A DNA stretch of 35,694 nt, taken from positions 1-35,694 of the forward strand of contig NZ_FONL01000017.1 in the NCBI RefSeq assembly GCF_900112895.1. The letters are read 5' to 3'. A program made the translations under genes and the position numbers. The number at the start of each line of letters is the position of its first letter. Positions within the stretch are counted from its first letter, which is position 1. This stretch comes from Succiniclasticum ruminis DSM 9236 (GTDB lineage Bacteria > Bacillota > Negativicutes > Acidaminococcales > Acidaminococcaceae). Below the pieces are notes generated by a model. The model searched no databases, had not been told where the DNA came from, and saw nothing but the letters and a program-made list of their open reading frames with translations. Shown here one piece after another: positions 1 to 15,853 of this stretch.

Positions 1-97
1 CTTTTGCTACGTTTGCCACATTTGCTTCGTTTGCTACTTTTGCTACGTTTGCCACATTTGCTTCGTTTGCTACTTTTGCTACGTTTGCCACATTTTT
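1..97. repeat. 36-bp tandem repeat inside a coding region
   Basis: Two exact 36-bp units lie at 1-36 and 37-72, and a third is broken off at about 97. Read on the minus strand they encode a 12-residue unit of the form VANVAKVANEAN near the C-terminus of the DUF6291-like protein. The array starts at the window edge, so its full copy number cannot be seen. Units that stay in frame suggest slippage expansion or contraction that keeps the protein readable. Confidence 0.9.
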
Positions 98-355
98 CTT
101 TTTTGCTTTAGCCTTGCCACCTCTACTGCCGGCTGCAGCACGGACAGAACTCAAAGAACCGGAAGATTCTTTTTCGTTGTCAATCAACGGCTTGATCAAC
201 GTATAAAAATAATCACCGATACGTTCGTAGCCGGAAAACGAAGCAACCCCGGTGGATTGATACGTTGCAACCGCAGTACCTAAAACACCTTTTTCTTCCG
301 CCGAGAAATTATCTGATAAAAAAATCATTTTCACTAATTCTTTTGACTTTAACAT
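1..355 (-). CDS. DUF6291-like phage/plasmid protein with repeat tail (3' end outside window)
   Basis: Reading leftward from ATG at 355 gives at least 118 residues with no stop before the window edge. The N-terminus (MLKSKELVKMIFLSDNFSAE) is followed by a stretch ending in FYTLIKPLIDNEKESS. This resembles the short helical domain of DUF6291-type proteins found in phages and mobile elements of Firmicutes, which often precede replication genes. That assignment is by pattern memory and is moderate only. A lysine/alanine-rich stretch (GGKAKAKKK, residues about 80-88) leads into VANVAKVANEAN repeats, probably a flexible linker before a domain outside the window. The ribosome site is weak (GGTGGTG about 5 bases upstream). 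It is the last visible gene of the leftward operon and follows a small-RNA unit on the opposite strand. Confidence 0.6.
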   Translation of the reverse strand, partial: MLKSKELVKMIFLSDNFSAEEKGVLGTAVATYQSTGVASFSGYERIGDYFYTLIKPLIDNEKESSGSLSSVRAAAGSRGGKAKAKKKNVANVAKVANEANVANVAKVANEANVANVAK

Positions 356-395
356 AATAGCACCACCATAAGAAACCTGAAGTGGGGATAAGCAC

Positions 396-424
396 TTGGA
401 AAAAATAACAAAATATGGTATAAT
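396..424 (+). promoter_or_regulatory. Promoter of small-RNA copy 1
   Basis: The -35 box TTGGAA (396-401), a 17-base spacer and the -10 box TATAAT (419-424) fit a housekeeping sigma promoter pointing right, against the surrounding genes. The layout matches the promoter of copy 2 exactly in spacing. Confidence 0.75.
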
Positions 425-430
425 TATTTT

Positions 431-501
431 GTAAAGGTTATGCGTACCCCCACGGTACGATGTGCTCTGAAGTTACCGGAAATAACTTCAGAGCATTTTT
501 T
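431..501 (+). ncRNA. Small structured RNA, copy 1 (about 70 nt, own promoter and terminator)
   Basis: Predicted from sequence only. The first hairpin has a 5-bp stem, CGTAC (443-447) with GTACG (455-459), around the 7-base C-rich loop CCCCACG. A perfect 13-bp stem follows, TGCTCTGAAGTTA (463-475) with 483-495 around a 7-base loop, and then six T residues (496-501): a strong intrinsic terminator. The second copy at 1907 has the same element spacing to the base and keeps both stems through paired changes. No open reading frame of useful length fits. The RNA runs antisense to the leftward operon between the gene at 548-937 and the DUF6291-like gene, so it could act in cis on that mRNA or in trans through its C-rich loop. 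The family is not recognised. Confidence 0.7.
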
Positions 502-547
502 CATCAACTCGCAAGGAGCTTTGATGAAAAAATAACACCGCTCATGT

Positions 548-937
548 CTAAAACCGAGATGCATATTTCAGCATCAACGCTTTCTGCTTTTCCGTAAATT
601 CCACATCATACTGCTTACTTGTATCCTTCGAAATTCTGTTACGGTACGCATACGTAAGAACTGCTTCTCCGTTTTGGTTAAAGTGAAAGATTACACAAGT
701 GCCTTCTGCTTCGTATTTGTAACTTTTCGCAAATACGGCATTCGGAGCGTAATGAACTTTTGCTCCGTACACAGAACTTTTGCTGTCGCCTACTGTCCGT
801 TTTATCTGTTCTTGTGCAGTTTTCACAACATCAAGCAACCTTTCATAATCCAAAATTCTCCGCCTTGCCCTTCCGTTCACTGCAGATAAAACTTTATCGA
901 TTTTTTCTTTATTCTTATCAACAATTTTAATTAACAT
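548..937 (-). CDS. Hypothetical protein of the leftward operon, 129 aa
   Basis: I do not recognise a family. The product begins MLIKIVDKNKEKIDKVLSAV, has a basic patch (NGRARRRILDYERLL) and ends in a region rich in aromatic and charged residues with no signal peptide or membrane segment. It is probably a small soluble cytoplasmic protein. The start at 937 is preferred because AAAGG lies 9 bases upstream. The in-frame ATG at 946 would abut that ribosome site directly. The gene lies between the methyltransferase and the first small-RNA unit in an accessory operon, so a phage or plasmid function is likely but unspecified. Confidence 0.65.
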   Translation of the reverse strand: MLIKIVDKNKEKIDKVLSAVNGRARRRILDYERLLDVVKTAQEQIKRTVGDSKSSVYGAKVHYAPNAVFAKSYKYEAEGTCVIFHFNQNGEAVLTYAYRNRISKDTSKQYDVEFTEKQKALMLKYASRF

Positions 938-1158
938 GTTTTTCATCCTTTCATAAAATAATAATGTGATACAGATTCCAAATCTGTTTGGTCACTGTAA
1001 TGCATTTGCAGTATCTACTAAAATCACGATACAATGAAACAATCCCAGTATTAAGTTATTCAATTACAATCATATACATCACCCGCCTTTTCAAACCTTC
1101 GTCGAAATAACCATTATCCCAAATCACTTCAGTGGCCCAATACGCTTACCGTATTAAA

Positions 1159-1830
1159 CTATGAAGTAACTCCATACCTGATATCACAACCCAAAAAACA
1201 CCTGTCCAATTGCTTGCACGCCTCAAAAACCGAATAACCCCCAGCCGCAGGGTCCAATACAACGTCCCCGTCAGCAGTAGTAGCTGCTATCAACCTTCTT
1301 TGTAATTCAACCGGTTTACTGTGGGGGTGGTTCTTAACGACTTTTTCTGCCCATACATCAGGAATGCTGTGGTCACGCCAACATGCTTTTGCTTTTACGG
1401 GTGACTTTTGCAAAACAACAAGATATTCTGATTTATGTCTCGCATGGTATCCCATACCGAGCTTCCCCTTGTCCCAAACAATCATATCCACTACATTTAA
1501 ATTTGTATCGCTAAACCATTTATAAATATCCTGAATCAAATGATATTTATCGACCCAAAAGAAAAGATGTCCACTCTTTTTCAAGACACGATTTATCTCT
1601 GTTATAAAGGATCTAATAATATTATCATCCATCTGTTCTAAAGAGCATCTTTCCCTGCCCCTGCTCTTTCCCTCGTTGCCGTAGTGCAGTTTATCCAACA
1701 CACCACGGTATTGCGGGTCGAAAAATGCAGTAGCTATTGTTCCATCTTTAATTTCGGACAGCAAATTTCTGCCATCTGTCAAATTTTTCGCGTTGAAGTT
1801 ATATATATCAGATTTTAATACATCCATCAT
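1159..1830 (-). CDS. Orphan DNA methyltransferase, beta class (N4-cytosine/N6-adenine), 223 aa
   Basis: The order of motifs is that of beta-class amino-methyltransferases. The catalytic motif IV comes first (TAFFDPQY, residues about 34-41), then a central region, then the S-adenosylmethionine-binding motif I near the C-terminus (VVLDPAAGGYSVFEAC). The HSKPVELQRRLI segment before motif I is typical. The catalytic tetrapeptide reads DPQY instead of the usual DPPY/SPPY, a known but less common variant type. AAGGAG lies 7 bases before ATG 1830, while ATG 1836 is too close to it. No restriction endonuclease is adjacent, so this is probably a phage-type orphan enzyme that protects or marks element DNA. 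Modified base and target site cannot be read from the sequence. Confidence 0.85.
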   Translation of the reverse strand: MMDVLKSDIYNFNAKNLTDGRNLLSEIKDGTIATAFFDPQYRGVLDKLHYGNEGKSRGRERCSLEQMDDNIIRSFITEINRVLKKSGHLFFWVDKYHLIQDIYKWFSDTNLNVVDMIVWDKGKLGMGYHARHKSEYLVVLQKSPVKAKACWRDHSIPDVWAEKVVKNHPHSKPVELQRRLIAATTADGDVVLDPAAGGYSVFEACKQLDRCFLGCDIRYGVTS

Positions 1831-1871
1831 TAGCATTCTCCTTAATGAAAACTTCTTACAGTGATATCCAC

Positions 1872-1900
1872 TTGTAATAATACAACCATCATGTTATAAT
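1872..1900 (+). promoter_or_regulatory. Promoter of small-RNA copy 2
   Basis: The -35 box TTGTAA (1872-1877), a 17-base spacer and TATAAT (1895-1900) match the arrangement at copy 1. In both copies the -35 box is embedded in CACTTGnAA. Confidence 0.75.
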
Positions 1901-1906
1901 AAATCA

Positions 1907-1982
1907 ACATAATCTATGTGTACTTCCGTGGTACACCATGCTCTGATGTTGCGGCCAACAACATCAGAGCATTTTCTTTTTT
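1907..1982 (+). ncRNA. Small structured RNA, copy 2
   Basis: The first stem is TGTAC (1919-1923) with GTACA (1931-1935) around the loop TTCCGTG. The second is a perfect 13-bp stem, TGCTCTGATGTTG (1939-1951) with 1959-1971 around a 7-base loop, followed by a T-rich tail from 1972. Distances from the -10 box to stem 1 (24) and stem 2 (44) are identical to copy 1. Relative to copy 1, one pair in stem 1 and two pairs in stem 2 change on both sides and none is broken. Both loops keep CC at positions 3-4. The unit lies between the gene at 1987 and the methyltransferase gene, antisense to the leftward operon. Confidence 0.7.
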
Positions 1983-1986
1983 TAAT

Positions 1987-2391
1987 TTAAGACGCGGGGG
2001 CCAAGCTGTTCGTTAACAGGGTCCGGACAGCTTCCAAGAAATTTTCCACTACACAAAACCTTCTATTATCCAATACATACAGCAGGTTTCTGTCAGGGTC
2101 GCCTTTTGCAGCTCCAATTGAATCCATATACGCAAAAAGTTCTTCCTGGAAGTCTGCAAAAGAAAAATTTAACATACAATAAGCATCTTCACCCACCACA
2201 CGAATATACACACGGTTATATTCAGGGGAACTTTGATACTCCTGGAACAGAGGCATTTGTTCATCGTATTCCCACGATTTTATTCGTATCGCGCCGGCGC
2301 CCATCTTATACAAATATTTTTTTGTAAATCTTTTTGCAAAACCACTTTTCAACAATTTCTTACGCCATTTTTTTGTATAGCCATTTACCAT
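1987..2391 (-). CDS. Hypothetical protein of the leftward operon, 134 aa
   Basis: No family is recognised. The N-terminus is strongly basic (MVNGYTKKWRKKLLKSGFAK), and the rest is acidic/aromatic with VYIRVVGEDAYCMLNFSFADFQEELFAYMDSIG. No signal peptide or membrane helix is apparent. AAGGAG 8 bases before ATG 2391 supports the start. It sits between the paralogous small-protein genes and the methyltransferase, and its stop codon is just past the tail of small-RNA copy 2, so the two transcripts converge. Confidence 0.65.
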   Translation of the reverse strand: MVNGYTKKWRKKLLKSGFAKRFTKKYLYKMGAGAIRIKSWEYDEQMPLFQEYQSSPEYNRVYIRVVGEDAYCMLNFSFADFQEELFAYMDSIGAAKGDPDRNLLYVLDNRRFCVVENFLEAVRTLLTNSLAPAS

Positions 2392-2439
2392 TTTCTAAGC
2401 TCCTTTTCCGTATCGTCATACGATACTTAAACAAATTCT

Positions 2440-3027
2440 TTAAGCCTGACTGTTTTCTTTAGCGGATAATGAGTCCACGAAGGTGTTTATTCTTTTAAAA
2501 AACTCTACTAGTTGCCAGTGATTCATTTTGCAAACTTTTTTAATTGTTCGTTCAACGTCGATATATTGCGCAAACCCGTTCGACCTGTTCCGAAAAGCGT
2601 CTTTAACAAGACCGGGAATATCATCCACGCTAAAGTACGGAAAGCTTTTGGCCATAAGCACCACCAGCGTGATAAAGTTCATTTCAATTTCCGAGAACTG
2701 CGGCAGGTTATTCCGTTTGTAATAACCTTGAGGCTTTCCGAATTCATTGATATACTCGTCTTCGTTGAGATACCGTTCGGTCCATTTTTTCGCAGCATCC
2801 GGGGTCATGGGAATAATGGATTCTCTAATAATCTGCCCGCCGAATTCTTCTGCTACGTTAGTCACAGGAACACCCGCACTTCTGTTATACAGGAAATATT
2901 CACCGTCTCTGTCCCGATAAAGTGTGGTACAAATGTGCTGGACGCCATCGTCGAAATCGAACCTATATGTTCCTACACGATGTGCTGTTTCTGTGTTGTA
3001 CAATTTTTCGTTCACGATTTTCTTCAT
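2440..3027 (-). CDS. Conserved mobile-element protein, long paralogue (195 aa)
   Basis: The N-terminal half (MKKIVNEKLYNTETAHRVGT to about residue 95, ending in DEYINEFG) is homologous by eye to the whole product of the neighbouring gene at 3138-3443. Shared features are the MK.IVN...NT start, the YFLY strand, a GG.I...PM.ADAAKKW-like segment and the final EFG. Such proteins are common hypotheticals on phages, plasmids and integrative elements of Firmicutes, and the function is unknown. The C-terminal half (LPQFSEIEMNFITLVVLMAK onward) is an extra helical region absent from the paralogue. AAAGGAG 9 bases upstream fixes the start at 3027. An in-frame ATG at 3057 lies upstream of that ribosome site and is unlikely. 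Confidence 0.75.
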   Translation of the reverse strand: MKKIVNEKLYNTETAHRVGTYRFDFDDGVQHICTTLYRDRDGEYFLYNRSAGVPVTNVAEEFGGQIIRESIIPMTPDAAKKWTERYLNEDEYINEFGKPQGYYKRNNLPQFSEIEMNFITLVVLMAKSFPYFSVDDIPGLVKDAFRNRSNGFAQYIDVERTIKKVCKMNHWQLVEFFKRINTFVDSLSAKENSQA

Positions 3028-3060
3028 AAGGTATTTCTCCTTTCGCCTTTGCGGCATATA

Positions 3061-3164
3061 AATATTTTTCTGGATATCACCATCGCAACATCCATTCCAA
3101 CGCCTGCACGTGCCAGGCGCTGGGTGAACACTGTGAATTATTCCCCAGATTCGCCAAATTCTTC
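3061..3164. repeat. 104-bp direct repeat, copy A
   Basis: This stretch is about 90% identical to 3477-3580, 416 bases away. It includes the end of the gene at 3138-3443 and the gap up to the leader of the gene ending at 2440. Inside is a small hairpin, CGCCTG(7)CAGGCG, kept in both copies. The similarity continues into the ribosome-site leaders (CCTTT...CCTTTGCG) of both downstream genes, so the duplicated unit appears to be gene plus leader. Confidence 0.85.
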
Positions 3165-3443
3165 AATGAACCTATCTGCGTCAAGATGTTCTGCCGCCCA
3201 TTCTTTTGCTTCATCGGCATCCATGGGCAGAATAGTTTTCCCGCCGGCCCAATCGTTAAGACCGGTATCCAGAGCGTAGCTTGAAGTCGGTTCCCCTTCG
3301 CCGTACAAGAAATACATGCCATTCCTTTTCTGGTAAAGTTCTTCGCGCCAGTACTGGAAATCACTAGAACAAGAATACCCGTCTGACCCTACAAATATTG
3401 CATTTACTGTGTTGAACATTCTTCCGTTCACGATTTCTTTCAT
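3138..3443 (-). CDS. Conserved mobile-element protein, short paralogue (101 aa)
   Basis: The product (MKEIVNGRMFNTVNAIFVGS ... PMDADEAKEWAAEHLDADRF ... EFGESGE) matches the N-terminal half of the product of the next gene and stops just after the shared EFG. It may therefore be a truncated duplicate or the minimal form of the family. AAAGGA about 10 bases before ATG 3443 supports the start. It is the first full gene after the leftward promoters at 3699-3750. No motif suggests enzymatic activity. It is soluble and acidic. Confidence 0.7.
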   Translation of the reverse strand: MKEIVNGRMFNTVNAIFVGSDGYSCSSDFQYWREELYQKRNGMYFLYGEGEPTSSYALDTGLNDWAGGKTILPMDADEAKEWAAEHLDADRFIEEFGESGE

Positions 3444-3458
3444 AACAAATCGTTCCTT

Positions 3459-3656
3459 TCACCTTTGCGAATAAAAATATTTTTCTGGATATTGCCATCG
3501 CAACGTCCATTCCAACGCCTGCACGCGCCAGGCGTTGAGTGAACACTGTGAACTATTCCCCGGATCTGCAAAATTTCGGAATGACCCGTCAGCCTCTTTT
3601 TTCGAGTTCCAATTATGTAAAAATATCTTTGTCGAGCTGCTGCCACATTTGTTCAC
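3459..3656 (-). pseudogene. Possible remnant of a third tandem copy (65 codons)
   Basis: An open frame of 65 codons from GTG 3656 ends at the ribosome site of the next gene. Its second half overlaps repeat copy B. The matching frame in copy A shares the pattern SQCS..AW.VQALEW.LRW and is then cut by TGA. The ribosome site AAAGGAG abuts this GTG, and it is better placed (7 bases) for an ATG at 3648-3650 that opens only an 11-codon peptide. I read the stretch as decayed duplication rather than a working gene, but a short translated leader is possible. Confidence 0.35.
3477..3580. repeat. 104-bp direct repeat, copy B
   Basis: Partner of 3061-3164. It differs at scattered single bases only over roughly the first 90 positions, mostly transitions. 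It lies upstream of the short paralogue, where no complete third gene remains. Confidence 0.85.
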
Positions 3657-3698
3657 TCCTTTACTTTTAAAATTACATTTGAGTTTTTAATAACTCAT

Positions 3699-3750
3699 AT
3701 TATAGATTTCTCCTAGCGTTATTGTAACTAATTATATCAGATTAAGTCAA
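3699..3750 (-). promoter_or_regulatory. Overlapping tandem promoters of the leftward operon
   Basis: On the minus strand, TTGACT (3745-3750) is followed after 18 bases by TACAAT (3721-3726). Overlapping it, TTACAA (3722-3727) is followed after 17 bases by TATAAT (3699-3704). Either would start transcription about 40-65 bases before the small ORF at 3656 and drive the genes from 3443 down to 1. Confidence 0.55.
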
Positions 3751-4327
3751 TACTTTTAACTTTTTCTTTTTTTAAAAAAATCTTATAACAATAACTAATG
3801 TATCAATATCAACGACTATTTTGTATTCGTTTTTTTTGCTTAAATTTACTCAAAATCCGCCGATTTGTTTATTTCAGACGGACATTTTATCCATAATTTA
3901 AGTATAAATTCGCAAAAACATCGCCAATTCTCATTTTAAAAATCATCGATTTTTTAGAAATCGTTTTTAAGGCCCTTATTAGCCTCATAGAAGCGCCGAC
4001 ATGTCCGGGGTATTCCACATATGCGTCGACCACTTTGAATGCATTGTAGGGCATTTTAAAGCGTTTCTTTTGTTTTCGGTTTGTTATTTTAGCCGATTCT
4101 TGTTTTTAAATATTGGTTTATCTTGTTTTTTTCTATAATGTTTCTATTTTTTATTGCTATTTTCAATTTTATTTTGTTGTTATTGCCAAAAGGAACAACA
4201 ATACTATCTTCTCCCTGAACGCTAACAAAAAATCAGCACCTGGTCATATTTAATGACTAGGCGCTGCGTTTTAAAAACCAGGATAACTTAATAGCTTCCC
4301 CTATTCTGTTAAAAACTGTAAATACCC
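3751..4327. other. AT-rich gene-free stretch with hairpins
   Basis: No credible gene is seen here. A small hairpin CGATTT/AAATCG (3947-3963) is followed by five T. TTGTTGTT (4174-4181) pairs perfectly with AACAACAA (4194-4201). A 14-bp imperfect stem pairs 4234-4247 with 4253-4266 around ATTTA. Read leftward that stem is followed by six T, so it could terminate leftward transcription, and it could also act as a weaker rightward terminator. A lone TATAAT at 4134-4139 has no good -35 partner. The stretch separates the leftward operon from the rightward HTH gene and could hold regulatory sites or an att/origin sequence that I cannot identify. Confidence 0.5.
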
Positions 4328-4356
4328 TTGTTTTTTTCTACGATGTGAGATATAAT
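4328..4356 (+). promoter_or_regulatory. Promoter of the HTH gene at 4485
   Basis: TTGTTT (4328-4333), 17 bases, TATAAT (4351-4356). It would give a leader of about 120 bases before ATG 4485. Confidence 0.6.
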
Positions 4357-4484
4357 AGAATAAAAATATCATACTTTTCAGTTTTACATTTAAAATTTTT
4401 TGAAACTCATGCTACTGGTTCGTTTCACTTCAAGTATATTTTTTTAATCGATTATATCAATATGTTTTTTTATAGGAGAAGATT

Positions 4485-5036
4485 ATGGAAAATGTCTTAT
4501 CACAATTATCTCAACGTCTATATACTCTTCGGACCAGTTACCACCTACCAGTATCCGAAGAAGAGTGGATATGTGGCGCCAGTCGATCTGCTTTAAATAA
4601 TTGGGAAAGAGGATTGCGTATCCCTTCCGCTGATGGCCTTTATCAAATCTCAACTTCTTTCGGTGTTTCGATCGATTGGCTTTTTGGAGTATCGCAGATT
4701 CCATATACACATGATTCAGTGTTCCTCGCGGAGTCTATCCACAAACCATACGAAGTCATTAAAGACTTAAATCAAAACGGTTCAATGTATCTGCGTATTG
4801 ATACGTCTTCCAAAGATTATTTTGACAATTCTAAACGCGATTTATATGACCTGGCTGCACGAGCCAATATCTTAGTTTTTGCACTATATATCCAAGGCTA
4901 TAACGATTTTTTCGCAGAGCACAACTTAAGAAAGGCTACTGAACAACAGATAATGCGTTTGGATATCGTGAAAAATGGACTATATTTTGCCTTGAAAACA
5001 AAGTATCCGTATATAAATATTCTGGAAGACTTGTAA
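4485..5036 (+). CDS. HTH (Cro/CI-type) regulator, 183 aa, paralogue of 7011-7634
   Basis: Residues about 8-70 form a Cro/CI-like helix-turn-helix: ALNNWERGLRIPSADGLYQI is the usual recognition helix and following turn, and FGVSIDWLFG the closing helix. The first helices are atypical (YHLPVSEEEWICGAS in place of the usual Q-EELA pattern). The C-terminal part is helical, with no protease or ligand domain recognised. The protein shares SALxxWExGxRxPxxDGL, FGVSxxWL and PYxxxxxLxAES with the product at 7011-7634, so they are paralogues on either side of the integrase module. AGGAG 7-8 bases before ATG supports the start. It converges with the integrase gene and probably regulates element genes. 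Target unknown. Confidence 0.8.
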   Translation: MENVLSQLSQRLYTLRTSYHLPVSEEEWICGASRSALNNWERGLRIPSADGLYQISTSFGVSIDWLFGVSQIPYTHDSVFLAESIHKPYEVIKDLNQNGSMYLRIDTSSKDYFDNSKRDLYDLAARANILVFALYIQGYNDFFAEHNLRKATEQQIMRLDIVKNGLYFALKTKYPYINILEDL

Positions 5037-5180
5037 TAAGCCTAACAAACAAGAATATCGATATTGTACTAAGGCTTCTGGTCCGGTGACAGTGTGGTCT
5101 ATCACCTTTCCTCTAATTTAATTATGGAAAACTAGTATCGTAGTCTTGTATCCGCAAACTCGTACGTCAGACCGCAATCG
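5037..5180. other. Gap between convergent HTH and integrase genes
   Basis: The gap holds a perfect 12-bp palindrome AATATCGATATT (5054-5065) and a weak hairpin GGTGA...TCACC. It is a natural place for the element attachment site, next to the integrase 3' end, but I found no matching second copy in the window. Confidence 0.3.
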
Positions 5181-6578
5181 CTATGCCTCTGGTTTTTCCT
5201 TTTTCCTTGCGGCAAATATCGCTCCTATCGTATCCGCAGCCTTGCGGTCCATCTCTTCCAGCACATGTGCATAAGTCTTCATGGTAAATGCAACACCATT
5301 ACCAGAATGTCCCAGCCTTTTGCTCACAGTTTTAGCATCCACTCCTGATGCCAATAACTGGGTGGCATGTGTATGGCGTAGGGAATGGAAAGTTATACTT
5401 TTAGGGAGCCCGGCAGCGCTGACCATCACATCGAAATACCTGCAACGAAAATTGGTGTAGTCGACCGGTTGACCAAAACTATTCGTATATATCAAGCCGT
5501 GTTCATTAAAGAACCAATCACCTACTGCTGCAGAGTAACGTAATTGATAATCATGCCAAGACCGCAATAATTGCATATTATCCTTATCCAAACTGATAGT
5601 ACGGGCGCTACTTCTGGTCTTGGGACTTACCAGCTTACCGCCTTGCAGGTTGTGTCTGATATTGATGGTATTGTTAACATAGTCCTCGCACCCCCAGGTC
5701 AGGCCGAAGATTTCACCCCGGCGCATGCCTGTTGCACATGCAAGGCAAATGACAAAATACCACTGGCGGATCAAATACATAATGCCAAGGTCTCTCTTCC
5801 ATATTTTGATTTCTTTATCTGACTTATTGGCTTTATTCTCCGTCTCTTTAATTCTCTTCTTCACTTTATCCAACGTCGTATAATACTCGCCACTCTCCGC
5901 AACCGCCATCAGACGGTACATCTCATCTCTAGTCAAATAACTTATTTCTTTCTTGTCATTCTGTGCCAGCGGCTTCGTTTTCTTTACTACGTTCAGACTC
6001 AGAACACCATTATCTATAGCTGAGTCCAATGCAGATATCAAAGTAGCCCTGACGCTGCGCACTGTAGTTGTAGATAGTTGTTCCCCGGTCCGTTTCGCCC
6101 CATGTTCTTTCAATTTCAGAAAATACGATTGAAAGTCGATTGCAGTTAAATCGGACAACATCTTTGACCGAATATCGTCGTCAAGGTACCGCAGCATGTA
6201 TGTGTAGTAAGAAAGAGTCGAACCCTTTACAGTCCCCGGAAGAATCTTTTTCAGCCAGCAATCACACCATTGGCCTAAAATAAAAGATATTTCATTTTCC
6301 GAGACCGATTCTTCCAGCGCCTTCGAATCATTCGCATTTTCATTGTCCGTGACCGATTTTTCCAGTGCCTTCAAATCATTTGCATTCTCATTGCCCGAGA
6401 CCGACTTTTCCAGTGCTTGCGCAACCTTCTCTTTCAGTTCACCCAGAGTACGTGCCCGTATAGGTCTACGCTTACGGTTCCCCTCAATGTCACGGATGTA
6501 AACAACTTTGACATAATAGCTGTATTTTCCGTTTTTTTCTTTGTAATCAAAAACACCATTCTTTTTCGGACGAGCCAT
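5181..6578 (-). CDS. int: Tyrosine recombinase (phage/ICE-type integrase), 465 aa
   Basis: The catalytic set of the tyrosine recombinase family is complete: Arg286 in ATGMRRGEI, His398 and Arg401 in HSLRHTHA, His424 in LGHSG and the nucleophile Tyr436 in KTYAHV. The N-terminus (RPKKNGVFDYKEKNGKYSYY) looks like the arm-type DNA-binding domain, and the SAM-like core-binding domain follows from about residue 95. Two oddities are visible. A threefold 16-residue repeat (ALEKSVSxNENANDxK) links arm and core domains, and a charged insert (DKVKKRIKETENKANKSDKE) lies early in the catalytic domain. GGAGG 10 bases upstream supports ATG 6578. It is preceded by the excisionase gene, as in a standard int-xis module that integrates and excises an element. 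Confidence 0.93.
   Translation of the reverse strand: MARPKKNGVFDYKEKNGKYSYYVKVVYIRDIEGNRKRRPIRARTLGELKEKVAQALEKSVSGNENANDLKALEKSVTDNENANDSKALEESVSENEISFILGQWCDCWLKKILPGTVKGSTLSYYTYMLRYLDDDIRSKMLSDLTAIDFQSYFLKLKEHGAKRTGEQLSTTTVRSVRATLISALDSAIDNGVLSLNVVKKTKPLAQNDKKEISYLTRDEMYRLMAVAESGEYYTTLDKVKKRIKETENKANKSDKEIKIWKRDLGIMYLIRQWYFVICLACATGMRRGEIFGLTWGCEDYVNNTINIRHNLQGGKLVSPKTRSSARTISLDKDNMQLLRSWHDYQLRYSAAVGDWFFNEHGLIYTNSFGQPVDYTNFRCRYFDVMVSAAGLPKSITFHSLRHTHATQLLASGVDAKTVSKRLGHSGNGVAFTMKTYAHVLEEMDRKAADTIGAIFAARKKEKPEA
6312..6420. repeat. 48-bp tandem repeat inside the integrase gene
   Basis: Two and a part units of 48 bases encode ALEKSV.(N)ENAND.K three times. The units have diverged at single bases, so the duplication is not very recent. 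It adds about 40 residues between the arm-binding and core-binding domains. Confidence 0.85.
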
Positions 6579-6598
6579 TTTAATATTTCCTCCCCAGG

Positions 6599-6832
6599 TC
6601 AGGAAGACGGTGCAACCTTTTTATTCTTTCCGTTACAGACGCACGGAGCATCAACATATGCCCGTGCCCAGTTGCCATCAATAGCAATACGCCCGCCGAT
6701 CGAGCGCACAGGGATTTCGCCCTTGTCAATCATGCGGTAAATCTGCTGTACTGTTATATAACCGCCCAAAGCCTCGTGCAAATCACGAACCGAATAAAAT
6801 TTCTTTTTCAAAACTTTTTCATCTTTTAACAT
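6599..6832 (-). CDS. xis: Excisionase-type HTH protein, 77 aa
   Basis: The product has the winged MerR-like helix-turn-helix of phage excisionases: FYSVRDLHEAL..YITVQQIYRMIDKGEIPVRSIGGRIAI (residues about 12-55), with the typical pattern of helix, turn, IYRMI-x-KGEIP and an Arg-rich wing. GGAGG 8 bases before ATG 6832 fixes the start. It ends 20 bases before the integrase start, so the two are co-transcribed. It would bend DNA at the att site and favour excision. A TATAAT in the leader lacks a well-spaced -35 box. Confidence 0.85.
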   Translation of the reverse strand: MLKDEKVLKKKFYSVRDLHEALGGYITVQQIYRMIDKGEIPVRSIGGRIAIDGNWARAYVDAPCVCNGKNKKVAPSS

Positions 6833-6913
6833 TGTTTTTTCCTCCTGTCTGCATTATAATGTTATTAATAAACACATTTGTAAATATAAACGACCTCAAC
6901 GAGGTTTTTACGC

Positions 6914-6946
6914 ACGCAATTGAATCTTTTAATACTACAATTGCGT
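6914..6946. promoter_or_regulatory. 9-bp inverted repeat between xis and the divergent HTH gene (candidate operator)
   Basis: ACGCAATTG (6914-6922) and its exact reverse complement (6938-6946) are separated by 15 bases, a centre spacing close to two helical turns. It lies in the divergent promoter region and so could be the operator of the 7011 regulator or a related repressor. Confidence 0.5.
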
Positions 6947-7010
6947 TTCTAGTTAGATTGTAATAAAAAATAATGTATCATGTCAATAGGGTCACGAAGG
7001 TAAAAAATTT

Positions 7011-7634
7011 ATGAAAAGATTGTCTGATTTCGTAAAAGAAATAATTCCTGTAAGGCTGGCCGCTGTAAGAAATGCTTACGGGATCCCACTCAAAGAAGTA
7101 TCCTGGTTATGCGAGGATACCAGCATATCAGCCCTTACCGCGTGGGAATCCGGATCCAGAACGCCTGCAGTAGATGGCCTATTTGACTTTGCTGTCAGCT
7201 TTGGTGTTTCACCGAATTGGTTATATGGCGCCAGCAAATCTCCCTATGATCCTGAATTTTTGCTATATGCAGAATCAACAAAGGGAGTTTACGAGTCTTT
7301 TCTTTCCAGATTTATTGATACCCATATGTTTATCTATAGGGCCCGAGAAGATGAACTCATCGCCAGAGCTCATGCATATGACTCTGTGGATACACGCGTT
7401 TCTACGTTTTCACTCGAGGCAAGAGCTAATCTATTGGTGTTGATTCCCTATTGGTATAAATTGGGAAAAGAAACACTCGCAAATCCCGACATAAAAAAAC
7501 AACTCCGCTATAAAATGGCGGAGCGTTTGAACAAATGCGAGAGGTCGATTTCAATGATACTACTTACCGGCGAAGCATCATGTATCATTGCCACGGAAGA
7601 GTGCATGGATTCACAAGCCCAAATCAACGTATAG
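7011..7634 (+). CDS. HTH (Cro/CI-type) regulator, 207 aa, divergent from int-xis
   Basis: The helix-turn-helix spans residues about 15-75 (SALTAWESGSRTPAVDGLFD ... FGVSPNWLYGASKSPYDPEF) and is homologous to the regulator at 4485. As in that paralogue, the first helices (YGIPLKEVSWLCEDTS) differ from the standard repressor pattern. The C-terminal 130 residues are mostly helical, with no LexA-type peptidase motif. AAGG 10 bases before ATG supports the start. It is divergent from xis-int across the 9-bp inverted repeat, the usual place of a repressor controlling integration and excision. This role is inferred from position. Confidence 0.8.
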   Translation: MKRLSDFVKEIIPVRLAAVRNAYGIPLKEVSWLCEDTSISALTAWESGSRTPAVDGLFDFAVSFGVSPNWLYGASKSPYDPEFLLYAESTKGVYESFLSRFIDTHMFIYRAREDELIARAHAYDSVDTRVSTFSLEARANLLVLIPYWYKLGKETLANPDIKKQLRYKMAERLNKCERSISMILLTGEASCIIATEECMDSQAQINV

Positions 7635-7706
7635 GCGGTCGCGTTTCATACCTCCATCAGCAAATCACTGCCATATTGCTACAGGCAGCAAATTCATCAA
7701 AAACAA

Positions 7707-7756
7707 AAAAACTGCACCAATATCATTGCTATGATACGGGTGCAGTTTTTGTTTAG
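7707..7756. terminator. Bidirectional intrinsic terminator
   Basis: AAACTGCACC pairs with GGTGCAGTTT, and TATCAT-TGCT-ATGATA forms the top of the stem. It has T runs in both directions (GTTTTTGTTT rightward; TTTTTTTG leftward). It can stop both the HTH transcript and the leftward ATPase transcript. The remaining bases to 7925 hold no gene that I can see. Confidence 0.8.
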
Positions 7757-7925
7757 CTGTATTACCCCACATTCCACGGGGCAAAAGAAATTACCGATAA
7801 CAAAGAACGCCTGTTTTTATGCAAAATCAAAGCCCAGCCAAAATGAGAACATCATTAACTTAAGAAATTCAGAGAAAAAAATAGACTCTGCTTATTCTAT
7901 ATAGTAGCTTGGTTTTTTTGTCCAC

Positions 7926-9458
7926 TTAATTTGTATTTGGCCGTGAGAGATTAATTCCCAACTCGGCCCATGTTTTCGCCTCAAAATTGTAATTTTTGTC
8001 GTTAGCATCTCTCATCGTGTTTACTATTTTAATTAATGATTTAACAGACTCTGGGTTCCTTTCAGCAACTAATATACCTTTATTAGGGATAATTCCATCG
8101 AACACAAGTCCATCCCAATACATTCGGAGTTGATAAACATCTTTGCTGGTTGTGGTTTCCTTTTTACCTTCATAAATGGTAACCCCATAAGAGGTTTTTT
8201 CATATAAATCTATCCTAACTCTATCTTTGTTTTCTCCCGTACTTTTAAAAACTTGCATTTCAGTCGTTATTAATTTGTTCGGATCAGGATTAAACAGCTC
8301 CTTGTTTTTTCGCAATTCTTCAAACAAATCAGTTTCATGATCGGCCAGGGACAAATCCTTTTTTGGTTCAGGCATATTTGATTTTACCCAGGAATAGAGT
8401 TTCTCAAGTTTGGGGTCCCCTTCGCGCAATCCATTTTTAGATGTACGGGTTTTCGGCAGATAATCTTTGTTTTGGGACTTGAGATTGAGTACAACAAGAA
8501 GATAATTGTAAGAATTGTGTTTTTCAATACCCCAAATTTCCTTAAAAAGATTATAACAGAGAACTCTACCGTTAATACGGATTTCAACTCCAGATGATGA
8601 CATATTTTTCATATAATATTTTCTGGTTGTGGAATTATCAAATTCTTTCCTTAATGATTTTTCGTTAATACGTCCAAATTTATACTCAATATCAACTTTC
8701 CCAGAGCCTAAATCCACTTGTTCCATGCCTGATCCAGGTTTAATAAAATCTGCCCAGTCTGGTTCAACAGCACCCACAACCTTTCTCTCTTTTATCCCGT
8801 CACTATTTTCAATACTCATTGTGATGCTTGCGCCACCAGATGCAATAACTCCAGCATATATGAATCCGATATCTTCGCAAAGGATATCAGCCATTGTTCG
8901 GAACGAGGTTACACCTCCTCGAATTCCTCTTGCTGTGGTTTTGAACATTTCCCAACTACAAGTAAACCTAACCAAAGTGCCAGAACCACTAAGTTGGCCA
9001 GGCCAGGCTTCATTTGCGCAAACAAGTGCCTGGAAGTCATGGATTTTATAAGGAGCTGAAATCTTTTTGAAAGAGTTATTATCATAATCTTCATCTGTTC
9101 TTGTATATACTTCCCATGAGGAGTTCTCGGGATTTGCAGAAGCTAACGCATGTTTTAAACCAAAACCATGTTCATTAAGAGGGGATTCTCCTGCGTTCGT
9201 ATTTCCCAAAGTAAATGCTTCATCAAGTTTTTTTATTCCAGTGCCTGAATCTTCTATCGAAATTTCAACCTGATTAGTTGATTGTAATTCTTTTAAACTA
9301 ACAATAAGATTTCTGTTAACTGAAGGATTTGCGGCAAAATTTGAAATGCTATTGTCAAGGAATTCGTTAATTATTTGCCCGAGATTGTCAAAATGCCCAC
9401 CAATCCCAGCCCATAATTCTTCTGCACTTGGCTGATTATTAATTGTTATAATATTCAT
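7926..9458 (-). CDS. MORC-like GHKL ATPase with probable C-terminal PD-(D/E)XK nuclease domain, 510 aa
   Basis: The N-terminus is a Bergerat/GHKL ATPase: the N box INEFLDNS (residues 30-37) has the catalytic Glu32 and the Mg-binding Asn36, the first glycine motif is EDSGTGI (69-75) and the second is NEHGFGLKHA (95-104). A transducer-like region follows. Near the end, VRIDLY (Asp417) and IYEGKKE (Glu430, Lys432), then YQL, fit the D...E-x-K core of PD-(D/E)XK nucleases. The architecture resembles prokaryotic MORC/MutL-like ATPases linked to restriction and phage defence. This is family knowledge, and the nuclease reading is inference from motifs. The start at 9458 has AGGAG 8 bases upstream. 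An upstream TTG has none. It is a single gene beside the integrase module, so a stand-alone defence gene is plausible. Confidence 0.8.
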   Translation of the reverse strand: MNIITINNQPSAEELWAGIGGHFDNLGQIINEFLDNSISNFAANPSVNRNLIVSLKELQSTNQVEISIEDSGTGIKKLDEAFTLGNTNAGESPLNEHGFGLKHALASANPENSSWEVYTRTDEDYDNNSFKKISAPYKIHDFQALVCANEAWPGQLSGSGTLVRFTCSWEMFKTTARGIRGGVTSFRTMADILCEDIGFIYAGVIASGGASITMSIENSDGIKERKVVGAVEPDWADFIKPGSGMEQVDLGSGKVDIEYKFGRINEKSLRKEFDNSTTRKYYMKNMSSSGVEIRINGRVLCYNLFKEIWGIEKHNSYNYLLVVLNLKSQNKDYLPKTRTSKNGLREGDPKLEKLYSWVKSNMPEPKKDLSLADHETDLFEELRKNKELFNPDPNKLITTEMQVFKSTGENKDRVRIDLYEKTSYGVTIYEGKKETTTSKDVYQLRMYWDGLVFDGIIPNKGILVAERNPESVKSLIKIVNTMRDANDKNYNFEAKTWAELGINLSRPNTN

Positions 9459-9851
9459 AATCACATCTCCTAATAAATACTTATACAATCCTAAAAATCT
9501 ATAAAATAATATTAAACTATTAGTTCGACGTTTAACAGGTAAAACCTTTTTTTCATAGTTTGTCGCTGTATATTCTATTCATTTAAAAGTTTTAAGTTTG
9601 TTTCTCATTATCTGGATAAAAAGTTGCAACAGGCATCATATGCGCAATACAGTCACCTTTGCAAATTTTAACCGTTCCCTTGTCATATAAATTGTTCTAA
9701 TCTGATACTATTGATCTGTCAATTCGTCTATACTCATGAACCTTTTGCGGATTCATTTTTTCGTTGTAAGTGTTTTGCAAAAAGATTTTTTACCTTTTCC
9801 CTGGAATAAGTTACTTAATGACATTAGCCAAAATGATTGGTTGGGCTTTTA
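9459..9851. other. AT-rich gene-free stretch
   Basis: This holds the long leader of the ATPase gene. The minus strand carries TTGACA at about 9714-9719 and several AT-rich -10-like boxes, but no pair with convincing spacing. A 62-codon rightward frame at 9736 runs into the phosphoesterase gene and has no ribosome site. I see no repeat or RNA gene. Confidence 0.4.
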
Positions 9852-10379
9852 TCATTTAAAAAACACCATTATCGTATCCAGGCTCACAGGTGCGAACCCG
9901 TTAGCATCTACACCCACGTCATAACGGTTGATTCCAGCCTGCTTCTGCTGGTAATTATATATAGCTTTATTATGTTGATGCCCATGCAGATGAATAGCTC
10001 CCTTATAATAATCCGCCCATTCTTCTACCGGGTAATGAAATAATACAAATTTCTGGCTGTTCCAGACCGGTTCATGATAGTCCTTCACCCACCGGAACAC
10101 CCACGAATACTGCTGCCATGCCTCGTTATCAGCAAACCGGTCGTGGTTGCCACGTATCAGATACTTTACGCCTTTCAATTGAGAAAGCATGGCAAAGGCT
10201 TTCTCCGGGCCTTCCATGGTAACGTCACCCAGGATATACACCTCATCGTCAGGGGCAACAATGTTGTTCCAGTTAGCAATTAACTTTTCGTTCATCATAT
10301 CAACGTTTTTGAAAGGTCTATTACAATGACGAATGATTTTTTCGTGATAAAAATGTAAATCCGAAGTAAAAAAAATCAT
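9852..10379 (-). CDS. Calcineurin-like metallophosphoesterase of phage type, 175 aa
   Basis: All metal-binding motifs of the family are present in order: DLHFYH near the N-terminus (SDLHF), LGDV, GNHD, FHYP and HLHGHQH. The length fits the small single-domain phosphoesterases common in phages and mobile elements of Firmicutes. It should hydrolyse a phosphomonoester or diester with two metal ions in the cytoplasm. The substrate is unknown, and nucleotide or RNA repair are only possibilities. The ribosome site is weak. It is followed 20 bases upstream in the genome by another small leftward gene, so probably the same transcript. Confidence 0.85.
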   Translation of the reverse strand: MIFFTSDLHFYHEKIIRHCNRPFKNVDMMNEKLIANWNNIVAPDDEVYILGDVTMEGPEKAFAMLSQLKGVKYLIRGNHDRFADNEAWQQYSWVFRWVKDYHEPVWNSQKFVLFHYPVEEWADYYKGAIHLHGHQHNKAIYNYQQKQAGINRYDVGVDANGFAPVSLDTIMVFFK

Positions 10380-12630: not shown

Positions 12631-12685
12631 AAAAGCTTTACAAACGATATTATACGGAAAAAAGCATCCTTTGTCAATAGCATTC

Positions 12686-13108
12686 TCACCAAATCGAAGG
12701 TTTCATTCTGTGATACAACGTTTCATACTTTGTTCCGGCAATACCTTTCCATTCCGCGTCGATAAAACGCTGATCAGACGTCTTGACTTTTTTGTTCTTC
12801 CTGTCTGCCTGGTAAGCACGGATAATCCTGTATTTCCCGGTTCCGTAATCCATAACTACCGCTTCATAAAAATAGGAATGCGTCACGCCCTTCTGATTGG
12901 GAATAAAGGTCACGAACCAAAGGCCGATTTGTTTATCTCCTTCATGATGTACTTCCATGTGATTATAAAAGTCCTGAACTTCTATTGAGTTTTCCACCCG
13001 TGTCTGCACCGGTGTCCATGTTTTCTTTTTCAGCTTGCTTTTTTCCGCAAAGCATACGCCTGTAAACAGCAGTGTAAAAATAAGTGAAAGCGTTAGTATT
13101 TTTTTCAT
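12686..13108 (-). CDS. Small secreted protein of unknown function, 140 aa
   Basis: MKKILTLSLIFTLLFTGVCF followed by A and then EKSK is a clear Sec signal peptide, with signal peptidase I cleavage probable after residue 21. The mature part is basic and beta-rich (SIEVQDFYNHMEVHHEGDKQ, GLWFVTFIPNQ, YRIIRAYQADRKNKKVKTSD), and no family is recognised. It should be periplasmic in a diderm Negativicute. GGAGG 8 bases upstream fixes the start at 13108. A longer frame back to 13258 has no ribosome site. The promoter is at 13214-13242. The gene is monocistronic and divergent from the zinc-ribbon gene. Confidence 0.8.
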   Translation of the reverse strand: MKKILTLSLIFTLLFTGVCFAEKSKLKKKTWTPVQTRVENSIEVQDFYNHMEVHHEGDKQIGLWFVTFIPNQKGVTHSYFYEAVVMDYGTGKYRIIRAYQADRKNKKVKTSDQRFIDAEWKGIAGTKYETLYHRMKPSIW

Positions 13109-13213
13109 GTCAATTTCCTCCTGCAGTTTAATTTTACAATATTTCCCGGGAAATTGCATCACCTTACACCATAATATTTTTTTAGAGGCTGCATTTACAG
13201 ATATCTGCCCGAT

Positions 13214-13242
13214 AGTATAGAATATAATTGAGAGATTTACAA
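13214..13242 (-). promoter_or_regulatory. Promoter of the secreted-protein gene
   Basis: On the minus strand TTGTAA (13237-13242), 17 bases, TATACT (13214-13219). It gives a leader of roughly 100 bases. Confidence 0.55.
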
Positions 13243-13381
13243 AATCTTTTGACGACAAGTTTTTTTATAAACAATAGATAGTATGTGTTTAATTTCTTTT
13301 TTACAGAAGTCTTGTTGTTATTCTGTACTAAGTTTTTTCATATTTAATTTTACATAAACTGTAAGCGAGGAGGAAACAATC

Positions 13382-14236
13382 ATGGCTAATTTTTGCGAAA
13401 ACTGCGGTTCGCCCTTAAAGAGCGAAAATAAATTCTGCCCGAATTGCGGAGCTCCGGTAAAGCAAACTGAACCGGCAGTACCGGCAACCCCCGTTACACC
13501 CAGTTCACTGCCGGAAGATGCTGCGGTGAATACATCTCCGGCAAATGCCCCGACCGGTAATCCTTCCACAACATCTGCAGTTTCCGACACTTCTTCCGCA
13601 GTAACCGGTGCTGCCGGTGCCGCAACAGCTGCAACGTTGGGAGCAATTCATCCGGACCCGGTTCCTGAAAAACCGCAGGATGCTTTCGTCCCTCCCCGGG
13701 AGCAGACACCCCCAGACCCTCAGCCTTTTCATGAAGAAGCGTCAAAAGACAACGGGCCTTCGCATTCTTCTCTGCGGCAGGAAGCTGAACAGGCCTTTCC
13801 ACATACTGATTACATCCACAAAGAAGAATTTTCCCGGGGCGGAACAGGTCCCAAATACGAACCGGACAAAGACCTCCAGTCCATGTTCCTGCGTTACGAC
13901 AACCGCCTGAACCGCAAGCGTTACTTCTTCCGCGGCCTCGCACTTGGAGCAGCCGCTTCAATCATTACAAATTTAATTACCATGGTCGCCGTTTCAATGA
14001 ACAGCAGTGCAATCGCCATGCTGGGAACCATTATTTCGATTGCTGCCGTAATCCCCAGTTTCATGCTTATAATCCGGCGTCTGCACGATTTGAACCGCCC
14101 TGCCTGGTGGTGCATCGGTGTGTTCGTGCCGTTAGTAAATCTTGTTTTGGGAATCTACCTTCTGTTCTTCAAAGGAACGGACGGCCCCAACGATTACGGC
14201 CCCGACCCGCTGGAAGTACCGGGTGGTTTGCTCTAG
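13382..14236 (+). CDS. Zinc-ribbon and DUF805 membrane protein, 284 aa
   Basis: The N-terminal 25 residues form a zinc ribbon with two CxxC knuckles (FCENCGSPL and FCPNCGAPV). A long Pro/Ala/Thr-rich linker follows (about residues 28-150). The C-terminal DUF805 domain starts at LRYDNRLNRKRYFFR. It has three to four membrane helices and the diagnostic RRLHDLNRPAWW and FFKGTDGPNDYGPDP segments. DUF805 proteins are inner-membrane proteins of unknown function. The ribbon-linker fusion is common in Firmicutes. The start follows GAGGAGG with suitable spacing. It stands alone upstream of dpaL, with about 70 bases between them. Confidence 0.9.
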   Translation: MANFCENCGSPLKSENKFCPNCGAPVKQTEPAVPATPVTPSSLPEDAAVNTSPANAPTGNPSTTSAVSDTSSAVTGAAGAATAATLGAIHPDPVPEKPQDAFVPPREQTPPDPQPFHEEASKDNGPSHSSLRQEAEQAFPHTDYIHKEEFSRGGTGPKYEPDKDLQSMFLRYDNRLNRKRYFFRGLALGAAASIITNLITMVAVSMNSSAIAMLGTIISIAAVIPSFMLIIRRLHDLNRPAWWCIGVFVPLVNLVLGIYLLFFKGTDGPNDYGPDPLEVPGGLL

Positions 14237-14306: not shown

Positions 14307-15512
14307 ATGGAATACCGGTTCAAAGATTTCAGCGTCCTGCAAAATAATAGCTTAACAAAGGCAAACCAATATGTACGATTTGATAAAGCCGTGGCCGCAG
14401 ATGCAATTCGTTTTCACAAAACCCTGCCCGGTTACGCGCCTGCCCCGTTGGTTGCGTTGCAGGAACAAGCCGCTGCCTGTAGAATTAAAGGTATTTACTG
14501 CAAAGACGAGTCACACCGTTTTGGCCTTAATGCTTTTAAAGGACTAGGCGGAAGTTATGCCATGTTCCGCATCCTCTGCGAAAAGCTGGGGCTGGATTAC
14601 AAAAACATTGATTACCGTTACTTTCAGAAAGAAGAAGTCCGGAAGCAATGCGCCAAAATCCATTTTGTCACAGCCACGGACGGCAATCACGGCAAGGGTG
14701 TTTCCTGGGCCGCAAAGCTGTTTGGCTGCAACGCCACTGTATTTATGCCAAAAGGTTCTGTGGAAGCACGGCGCGTTGCCATCGAAGAAGCGGGCAATGC
14801 TACTGCGCAGATTACGGAATTTAATTATGATCAGGCTGTGGAACATTCCTGGGAACTGGCGCTTAAAAATGGCTGGATACTGATTCAGGATACCGCCTGG
14901 GACGGATACGAACAATATCCGGAATGGATTATCGACGGTTATCTGACATTGGCATCAGAAACCGTAGAACAGTTGGGACTAATTATTCCGACCCACGTTT
15001 TTCTGCAGGCAGGTGTCGGAGCCATGGCGGGTGGCGTTTTGGAGTTTTTTCATTCATGCTATCGTGAAACTCCTCCCATTGTCACTGTCGTTGAACCTGT
15101 GGAAGCCGCCTGCATCTATCAATCTGTGAAAGCCGGTGACGGACAGATTCACACCTTAGAAGGAAATCCTTCAACCATTATGGCCGGTCTGAACTGTGGT
15201 ACGCCCTGCCGGGTAACCTGGCCCGCTATCCGTGACAAAGCAGCTTTCTTCTGCGCCTGTGATGATACCATTACAGAAGAAGGTATGCGTGCCTACGCGA
15301 ACCCGGTTGGCAATGACAAAGCAATCGTCGCCGGAGAATCCGGGGCTGTGACCTACGGTCTCGTCAACCGGATCCTGCAGGATGAAACGCTTCGTAACCT
15401 GTTTAATATCAACGCAGATTCGGTAATCCTGCTTATTAATACCGAAGGCGACACCGATCCGGAAGGCTATCAGAGAATTGTGTATGGAATCCCTCATATA
15501 AAACAGAATTAA
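14307..15512 (+). CDS. dpaL: Diaminopropionate ammonia-lyase, 401 aa
   Basis: The product matches YgeX/DpaL, a fold-type II PLP enzyme that splits 2,3-diaminopropionate to pyruvate and two ammonia. The PLP lysine is Lys78 in GLNAFKGLGGSYA. TATDGNHGKGVSWAAK and FLQAGVGAMAGG are the phosphate-binding and glycine-rich loops. Length agrees with the family (about 400). ATG 14307 has GGAG 10 bases upstream. The earlier in-frame ATG at 14298 would sit one base after it. Threonine dehydratase or cysteine synthase are rejected because the SHRFGLNAFKGLGGSYA segment is specific to DpaL. It fits an amino-acid-fermenting anaerobe. It is followed by a strong terminator, so probably monocistronic. Confidence 0.93.
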   Translation: MEYRFKDFSVLQNNSLTKANQYVRFDKAVAADAIRFHKTLPGYAPAPLVALQEQAAACRIKGIYCKDESHRFGLNAFKGLGGSYAMFRILCEKLGLDYKNIDYRYFQKEEVRKQCAKIHFVTATDGNHGKGVSWAAKLFGCNATVFMPKGSVEARRVAIEEAGNATAQITEFNYDQAVEHSWELALKNGWILIQDTAWDGYEQYPEWIIDGYLTLASETVEQLGLIIPTHVFLQAGVGAMAGGVLEFFHSCYRETPPIVTVVEPVEAACIYQSVKAGDGQIHTLEGNPSTIMAGLNCGTPCRVTWPAIRDKAAFFCACDDTITEEGMRAYANPVGNDKAIVAGESGAVTYGLVNRILQDETLRNLFNINADSVILLINTEGDTDPEGYQRIVYGIPHIKQN

Positions 15513-15528
15513 TTATTTTGAACGCTAG

Positions 15529-15558
15529 AAAAACCTGATGTTCAGCATCAGGTTTTTT
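15529..15558. terminator. Terminator after dpaL
   Basis: ACCTGATG-TTCAG-CATCAGGT followed by six T. The A run on the other side also lets it work for the leftward copA transcript ending at 15650. Confidence 0.88.
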
Positions 15559-15649
15559 CTTTGGAAACAATAATATTAGTTTGTCAGAAAAAAGACTGAA
15601 GCAAAACTAAGTGAACATTTTTGCGAAGCCTTTTTCCTAAAATCAAATA

Positions 15650-15853
15650 TTACTTCACGAGTTCATACCCTGCATCGGTAATCGCCTTTTCGAATTCCGC
15701 CACCGGAATGTCGCGGTCAGCCTTCACCGTAGCGGTTTTAGCTTCCAGACTTACATCTACCGAAGTTACGCCCTCCAGTTTCGCCAACGCGTTTGTCACA
15801 TGTTTCTGGCAATGTGCACAGGTCATTCCTTCCACTTTTAATACTTTTTCCAT
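15650..15853 (-). CDS. copZ: Nested in-frame CopZ copper chaperone, 67 aa
   Basis: Inside copA and in the same frame, AGGAGG lies 7 bases before ATG 15853. Translation from there gives [20 protein letters not shown] ... [10 protein letters not shown], a full-length copper chaperone with the Cu(I)-binding CxxC (residues 12-15). The upstream copA frame reads through without a stop. Either a stop codon between formerly separate copA and copZ was lost, leaving a fusion that can still make free CopZ, or a base change or sequencing error removed it. Independent translation is an inference from the ribosome site. Confidence 0.6.

Follow-up and report, generated by a model that had tools for sequence, protein, structure and literature searches.

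Plasmid copy-control antisense RNAs, e.g., the Inc RNA of IncI/B plasmids, block a loop-to-leader pseudoknot. In phage lambda, the short OOP RNA is made from the pO promoter against cII-O and ends at tO, overlapping cII by 52 bases, and the passages cited here describe its pairing with the cII-O mRNA and suggest cleavage by RNase III (PMC5869508). According to another report, the convergent pO promoter also reduces transcription from pR, and replication suffers when this promoter is lost (PMC3985674). A further article deals with P22 sar and lambda aQ, phage-encoded RNAs that are antisense to phage genes and have ant (the antirepressor gene) or Q as their target, as well as with phage small RNAs acting on host RNAs, e.g., PreS and VpdS (PMC12197685).

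Here, we analysed a window of 35,694 nucleotides, i.e., the whole of contig C39 (NZ_FONL01000017.1) in the 2.54-Mb assembly of Succiniclasticum ruminis DSM 9236, in which two paralogous units point rightward against a leftward operon (Table 1). The sequence supports their description as small, rightward, terminated units under structural constraint that oppose this operon, and transcription of both is predicted on the same grounds. We tentatively favour, at slightly under an even chance, the view that they are paralogous ~70-nt small-RNA genes with their own promoter and terminator, antisense to intercistronic stretches of an early operon and acting as lambda pO-OOP. Regulation of the operon mRNAs in cis, one of the roles put forward in the initial annotation, is plausible and is our preferred reading as well.

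Table 1. Features of the two units and of the neighbouring genes (positions in the window unless stated otherwise)
Feature	Position	Strand	Basis or remark
Unit 1 promoter	396..424	+	TTGGAA 396-401, 17-nt spacer, TATAAT 419-424, extended -10 (TGG before TATAAT)
Unit 1 predicted small RNA	431..501	+	~70 nt; predicted from promoter and terminator, start placed 7 nt past the -10; fold computed
Unit 1 hairpin 1	443..459	+	6 bp, loop CCCAC (folding)
Unit 1 intrinsic terminator	462..501	+	14-bp stem 462-496, then T run
Unit 2 promoter	1872..1900	+	TTGTAA 1872-1877, 17-nt spacer, TATAAT 1895-1900, extended -10 (TGT before TATAAT)
Unit 2 predicted small RNA	1907..1978	+	~72 nt; start predicted, from promoter and terminator; fold computed
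Unit 2 hairpin 1	1918..1936	+	7 bp, loop UCCGU (folding)
Unit 2 intrinsic terminator	1938..1982	+	14-bp stem 1938-1972, then T-rich tail
Probable replication-initiator gene, start	2..355	-	by position only; would continue into contig C11, end C11:1002
Function-unassigned operon gene	548..946	-	ORF; in the leftward mRNA, precedes the gap holding unit 1
N6/N4 DNA methyltransferase gene	1159..1836	-	Pfam PF01555 6e-20; PHROG 67
Function-unassigned operon gene	1987..2391	-	ORF; stop codon abuts unit 2 terminator
Function-unassigned operon gene	2440..3057	-	first half related to hypothetical proteins of three phage records; paralogous to 3138-3443
HTH repressor-like gene	4485..5036	+	Pfam/PHROGs; divergent from the leftward operon
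Tyrosine integrase gene	5181..6578	-	Pfam/PHROGs

Each unit spans 110 nt (393-502 for unit 1 and 1869-1978 for unit 2). The two align without a gap over this length and therefore have identical distances between their elements, as the initial annotation had stated together with the common TTGnAA-N17-TATAAT promoter; its coordinates of the units and their rightward orientation against the leftward operon also agree with the sequence and the ORF list. Its 5-bp hairpin and 13-bp terminator stem were too short, as the hairpin folds with 6 bp in unit 1 and 7 bp in unit 2 and the terminator stem with 14 bp. T runs follow the stems of both units in the + direction only, and no + strand ORF of at least 60 codons overlaps either unit. 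In the folds of both RNAs, the 5' leader and the hairpin-1 loop are unpaired, and fold stability (z -5.4 for unit 1 and -5.2 for unit 2) beats 200/200 dinucleotide shuffles in each case. Under strict criteria for promoters, terminators and units that were written after the units were known, the real window 1-10000 holds 2 promoters, 2 terminators and 2 units, and 200 dinucleotide shuffles of it hold 9, 4 and 0 in total. A GTAC-N-GTAC motif, considered as a protein operator, occurs in the two hairpins and at one other place in the window; as many were present in 9/100 shuffles, and the candidate was set aside.

Between the two units, 71/110 positions are identical, and their conservation follows function. 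Promoter elements (-35 region 8/9, extended -10 8/9) and stems (hairpin-1 arms 9/12, terminator arms 23/28) are kept, and the promoter spacer (5/14), the leader (5/15, columns 33-47) and the hairpin-1 loop (2/5) have drifted. Beyond the borders, identity is 5/10 in each of two 10-nt blocks upstream of column 1 and then 2-4/10, and it drops to 1/10 right after alignment column 110. A BLAST search of the own genome with unit 1 retrieved unit 2 at E 4.3e-4 (61 nt, 74%). All 20/20 pairs of the common structure are kept despite 8/40 changed paired positions, which amount to three double and two single changes. The three compensated pairs (of 18) initially reported are all real, but two one-sided, pair-keeping changes had been overlooked, C-G to U-G in hairpin 1 and G-U to A-U at the terminator foot. 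When 8 random substitutions were placed in the 40 paired positions of unit 1 in 100,000 simulations, all 20 pairs were standard in 4e-5 of them, the corresponding values by part being 0.024 for hairpin 1 alone (3 changes) and 0.0016 for the terminator alone (5 changes). For the terminator, the claimed selection on RNA structure is firm, although any terminator would be expected to show it; for hairpin 1, the evidence consists of one double and one single change. The covariation is mostly what any duplicated terminator would show, with a modest separate contribution from hairpin 1. A CC is common to both hairpin-1 loops (columns 57-61, CCCAC and UCCGU), as had been noticed, but the second loop is not C-rich.

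Both predicted RNAs are wholly intercistronic. In the gap that separates the probable initiator gene from the gene at 548-946, unit 1 is placed immediately before the start of the former and faces away from it, and unit 2 lies directly upstream of the methylase, in the gap separating it from the gene at 1987-2391. Neither predicted RNA overlaps its upstream gene: ~47 nt separate the unit 1 RNA end at 501 from the gene end at 548, and ~9 nt separate the unit 2 RNA end at 1978 from the gene end at 1987. Relative to the start codons at 355 (unit 1) and 1836 (unit 2), the predicted RNA starts lie 76 and 71 nt upstream, and the RNAs run away from these codons, leaving the ribosome sites uncovered.

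The operon itself looks like the early replication operon of a prophage-like element, with the methylase, the probable initiator and DnaB, and with a repressor-like gene and an integrase upstream. The initial annotation was right that a leftward operon opposes the units, but its term "accessory operon" is better replaced by early operon of a prophage-like element. The left end of the window falls within a 36-bp repeat with which another contig of this genome, C11, starts as well (93 nt, 100% identity), and the window probably continues there across the collapsed repeat. This in-frame tandem repeat, of the ANVANVAKVANE type (window 1-95 and C11, locus L047, 1-95), is situated inside the gene before DnaB and breaks the assembly at this point. 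The minus-strand frame starting at 355 appears to run on in C11 to position 1002, and C11:999-2405 encodes a DnaB-type helicase (DnaB_C 5.6e-62). By position only, the frame preceding DnaB probably encodes the replication initiator; its window part has no match in Pfam, PHROGs or NCBIfam, and its C11 part none in Pfam or PHROGs. The protein of C11:3013-3411 gives sigma-70 region 4 matches below the Pfam cut-offs and a weak PHROG regulator match, and its gene is followed by a strong terminator at C11:3421.

No DNA match was found among phage records for window 1-3700 or among plasmid records for 1-7700. In viral contigs, where the searches reach close relatives only, none could be confirmed for the proteins of the methylase, 548-946, 2440-3057, DnaB and integrase genes. 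The 548-946 protein has weak relatives (26% identity) in 2/379 other genomes of the class and none among phage records, and the 1987-2391 protein has none in the 62 other genomes of the order searched. Several features of the element were noted in passing. The genes at 2440-3057 and 3138-3443 are a duplicated pair in the same operon (36% identity over 100 residues), and their upstream ends carry an 85% repeat (3056-3172/3471-3587). The N-terminal part of the integrase gene (window 6290-6433) holds three 16-residue in-frame repeats (48 nt), and a HATPase-domain protein of 520 residues (window 7926-9488) near the element is a possible accessory or defence gene. The cargo of C11 is unusual in being of protease type: it has AAA genes at 5514-6806 and 12636-13904, the second of which matches the ClpX zinc finger, and among 15485-16765, 16759-17637 and 19368-19958 are a third AAA gene (like the second, by eye), a ClpP-looking gene (by eye) and an RNase H gene. 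At C11:3465-5491, three tandem genes of 143-157 residues are paralogous by eye, and the first has one weak, functionless PHROG match.

Homologues of the units were sought with a covariance model (R1) in overlapping genome sets; sets of more than 40 genomes were searched by a loose first look followed by stricter filters, in which weak matches are lost, as illustrated by a weak own-genome match in contig C35 (locus L084) that was found by direct scan and is absent from the genome-wide result. The own genome yielded no credible third copy. Its six further matches at E <= 10 comprise two on the reverse strands of the same two terminators and four others (E 0.107 to 4.06), one with an unrelated hairpin and terminator and three covering mainly the promoter region; contig C11 had no match at E <= 10. 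In the family, 7/58 other genomes had matches at E <= 0.1 for ~6 expected. No credible relative was found in 380 genomes of the class (2/379 others at E <= 0.01 for ~4 expected) or in a phylum sample of 398 genomes (0/397 others at E <= 0.001). Six matches were aligned (L010, L011, L015, L016, L019 and L020), L012-L014 being left out of this check, and they showed promoter similarity with or without an unrelated terminator, with hairpin 1 mostly broken or replaced. In a DNA search of the genus with unit 1, 3/13 other genomes had matches at E <= 0.01; these are 19-39 nt long and all fall in the promoter part, which is A+T-rich. Three DNA-pattern scans of viral contigs gave 0 matches.

Further searches were guided by the neighbouring genes. 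Relatives of the methylase at 57-71% identity lie on 22 genome contigs, nine of them titled Synergistales, Synergistaceae or Fretibacterium; these contigs gave two R1 matches (best E 3.2) and no credible unit, and therefore the unit does not travel with this methylase family there. At the loci of the 548-946 protein relatives (L050-L052), the best match has E 0.12 (L050), and promoter-terminator scans of L050 and L051 showed nothing resembling the units; in L051, a weak promoter-like site lies 32 nt before a 5-bp terminator-like site. For DnaB, 20/27 places of the genus other than C11 were taken, host dnaB genes included, and no related unit was found upstream in these 20 regions. R1 gave three matches there at E <= 1, of which the two best (L100 and L084) have in common an unrelated hairpin that lacks a proper promoter and lies close to HTH and amidase-like genes, and the third is in L095 (E 0.48). 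A looser promoter-terminator scan of the window, C11 and the 20 DnaB regions returned the two units and three others, none of which was retained. The pair at L047:8051-8123 has the same direction as the following gene; apart from those of the units, its promoter is the sole one of the strict TTG-TGnTATAAT type within the 62 kb that were scanned. A 12-bp terminator comes next, and the pair, lying divergent from an HTH gene, may be an attenuated early leader. Its layout is like that of L095:2065-2171 in another genome of the genus, where a strong promoter and a terminator without Rfam match stand just before a co-directional HTH gene and look like an attenuated repressor leader. In the third, L087:645-695, a weaker promoter faces a small ORF (374-640) on the opposing strand, and no sequence resemblance to the units was seen; the L095 pair, too, has a sequence different from theirs.

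Within the genomes searched, only these two copies were found, the outcome that the initial annotation had named as speaking against its proposal, and the comparison of structure is limited to them. Our claim stays local because only one pair of copies is known. In Rfam, the window matches tRNA only, the units having no match at the gathering threshold, and a relaxed search of 340-2010 gave four matches to unrelated families far below threshold. As far as Rfam is concerned, the earlier statement that the units fit no known family is correct, but in arrangement they are similar to lambda OOP. Among the literature matches listed, we noticed no publication on the two units, which does not prove absence.

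We propose a model in which the entire short RNA would form a duplex with the early mRNA in the gap separating two cistrons, where RNase III would then cut the paired mRNA, and in which the firing of the opposing promoter would slow RNA polymerase travelling down the operon. Either effect would lower or uncouple the output of the downstream genes, most tellingly that of the replication initiator. Several points stand against this OOP-like model: (i) the predicted RNAs, starting well upstream of the start codons, leave the ribosome site uncovered and have no coding-end overlap, (ii) the searched genomes contain no homologue of either unit beyond this element, (iii) the initiator is so named by its position before DnaB only, and (iv) the 20 DnaB regions of the genus lack a related unit upstream. 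At unit 1, the hairpin-1 loop of the mRNA could pair near the start codon (equally good pairing in 20/2000 shuffles), which makes a leader switch a lead for this unit; at unit 2, 1721/2000 shuffles are as good, so such pairing is not common to both. A bolder and quite improbable extension would be a duplicated antisense switch, in which one RNA gene was copied to two gaps so that a pair of related RNAs would set initiator and methylase; as their stems are similar, each RNA could also pair with the mRNA targeted by the other, which would couple replication and methylation.

Several other readings were weighed against this antisense model. There is some small chance that the units encode trans-acting small RNAs or sponges directed at host mRNAs or an RNA chaperone, their antisense position being incidental. 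The leader and loop left open in both folds would suit such a role, for which PreS and VpdS are phage precedents, but these unpaired parts are the least conserved of the units. Moreover, the initially suggested trans binding of G-rich ribosome sites did not emerge from duplex predictions with 92 start regions, a set drawn from the element only (mechanical ORFs of at least 80 codons, not every one of them a gene, from C11 and the leftmost 12.5 kb of the window): for the 33 nt at the 5' end, the best duplex was equalled or beaten by 45/60 shuffles in the case of RNA 1 and by 18/60 in that of RNA 2. It is unlikely that the opposing promoters matter instead of the RNAs, convergent transcription tuning the operon or opening DNA near an origin and the terminators only confining it. 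The promoter elements are indeed conserved as well as the stems, and lambda pO offers a precedent; nevertheless, hairpin 1 is kept with a compensated change that a mere promoter-terminator pair would not need, no origin was identified in the element, and unit 2 is not beside the initiator.

The fold of the opposite strand raises another reading, that the hairpins serve the leftward mRNA, be it by stabilising it between cistrons, as sites of processing or by giving its leader an alternative structure, and that the rightward promoters are incidental. The reverse strand of the units folds at least equally well (z -6.3 and -5.8), the full leaders fold at z about -4.4, and in unit 1 the first hairpin can unfold and pair close to the start codon. 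This view is nevertheless quite unlikely given two perfect extended -10 promoters at an identical distance, T runs on the rightward side only, the lack of any such unit in the 200 shuffles, and a long-range leader pairing that the two units do not share. Very doubtful is a functionless duplicated promoter-terminator segment whose arms were matched by quasipalindrome correction during replication and not by selection; the lack of homologues elsewhere in the genomes searched would agree with it, as would an operon that also carries a duplicated gene and the 85% repeat, but the promoter elements were kept while spacers and leader drifted. Finally, an in-phase ATG at the same column (440 and 1916) and shared residues (M..T..V..AL.L...TSEHF) could denote two short peptide genes in the same frame. 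These frames (31 and 24 residues) pass both terminators before reaching a stop, and by eye no plausible ribosome site precedes the unit 2 ATG; with their stop codons beyond the terminators, peptide genes are therefore not likely, and we regard them as scarcely credible.

Returning to the preferred antisense model, the units have features of several described systems. They recall plasmid copy-control RNAs in that unit 1 lies in the leader of the probable initiator and loop-to-leader pairing is possible there; in contrast to them, no such pairing was found at unit 2, and there is no plasmid DNA match (window 1-7700) and no Rfam match. As for P22 sar and lambda aQ, the arrangement would be that of phage-encoded antisense RNAs, but the unit RNAs lie within gaps between cistrons, away from the ribosome sites. 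The closest likeness, one of arrangement, is to lambda pO-oop-tO: at the sequence level, both units have their own promoter and terminator and are opposed to an early operon, and unit 1 is directly upstream of the initiator, if the ORF from 355 to C11:1002 is the initiator. In contrast to OOP, neither unit overlaps the 3' end of the upstream gene, and a second paralogous unit precedes the methylase. If transcribed, the units would represent antisense RNAs of the OOP kind, carried by an element for which the searched phage and plasmid records gave no DNA relatives, and they would exemplify the duplication of an antisense RNA gene inside a single operon. A recurrent origin of opposed RNAs upstream of replication initiators in prophages would then become testable. 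Phage antisense RNA genes as such are already known, and the unusual feature of this locus is the duplicated pair.
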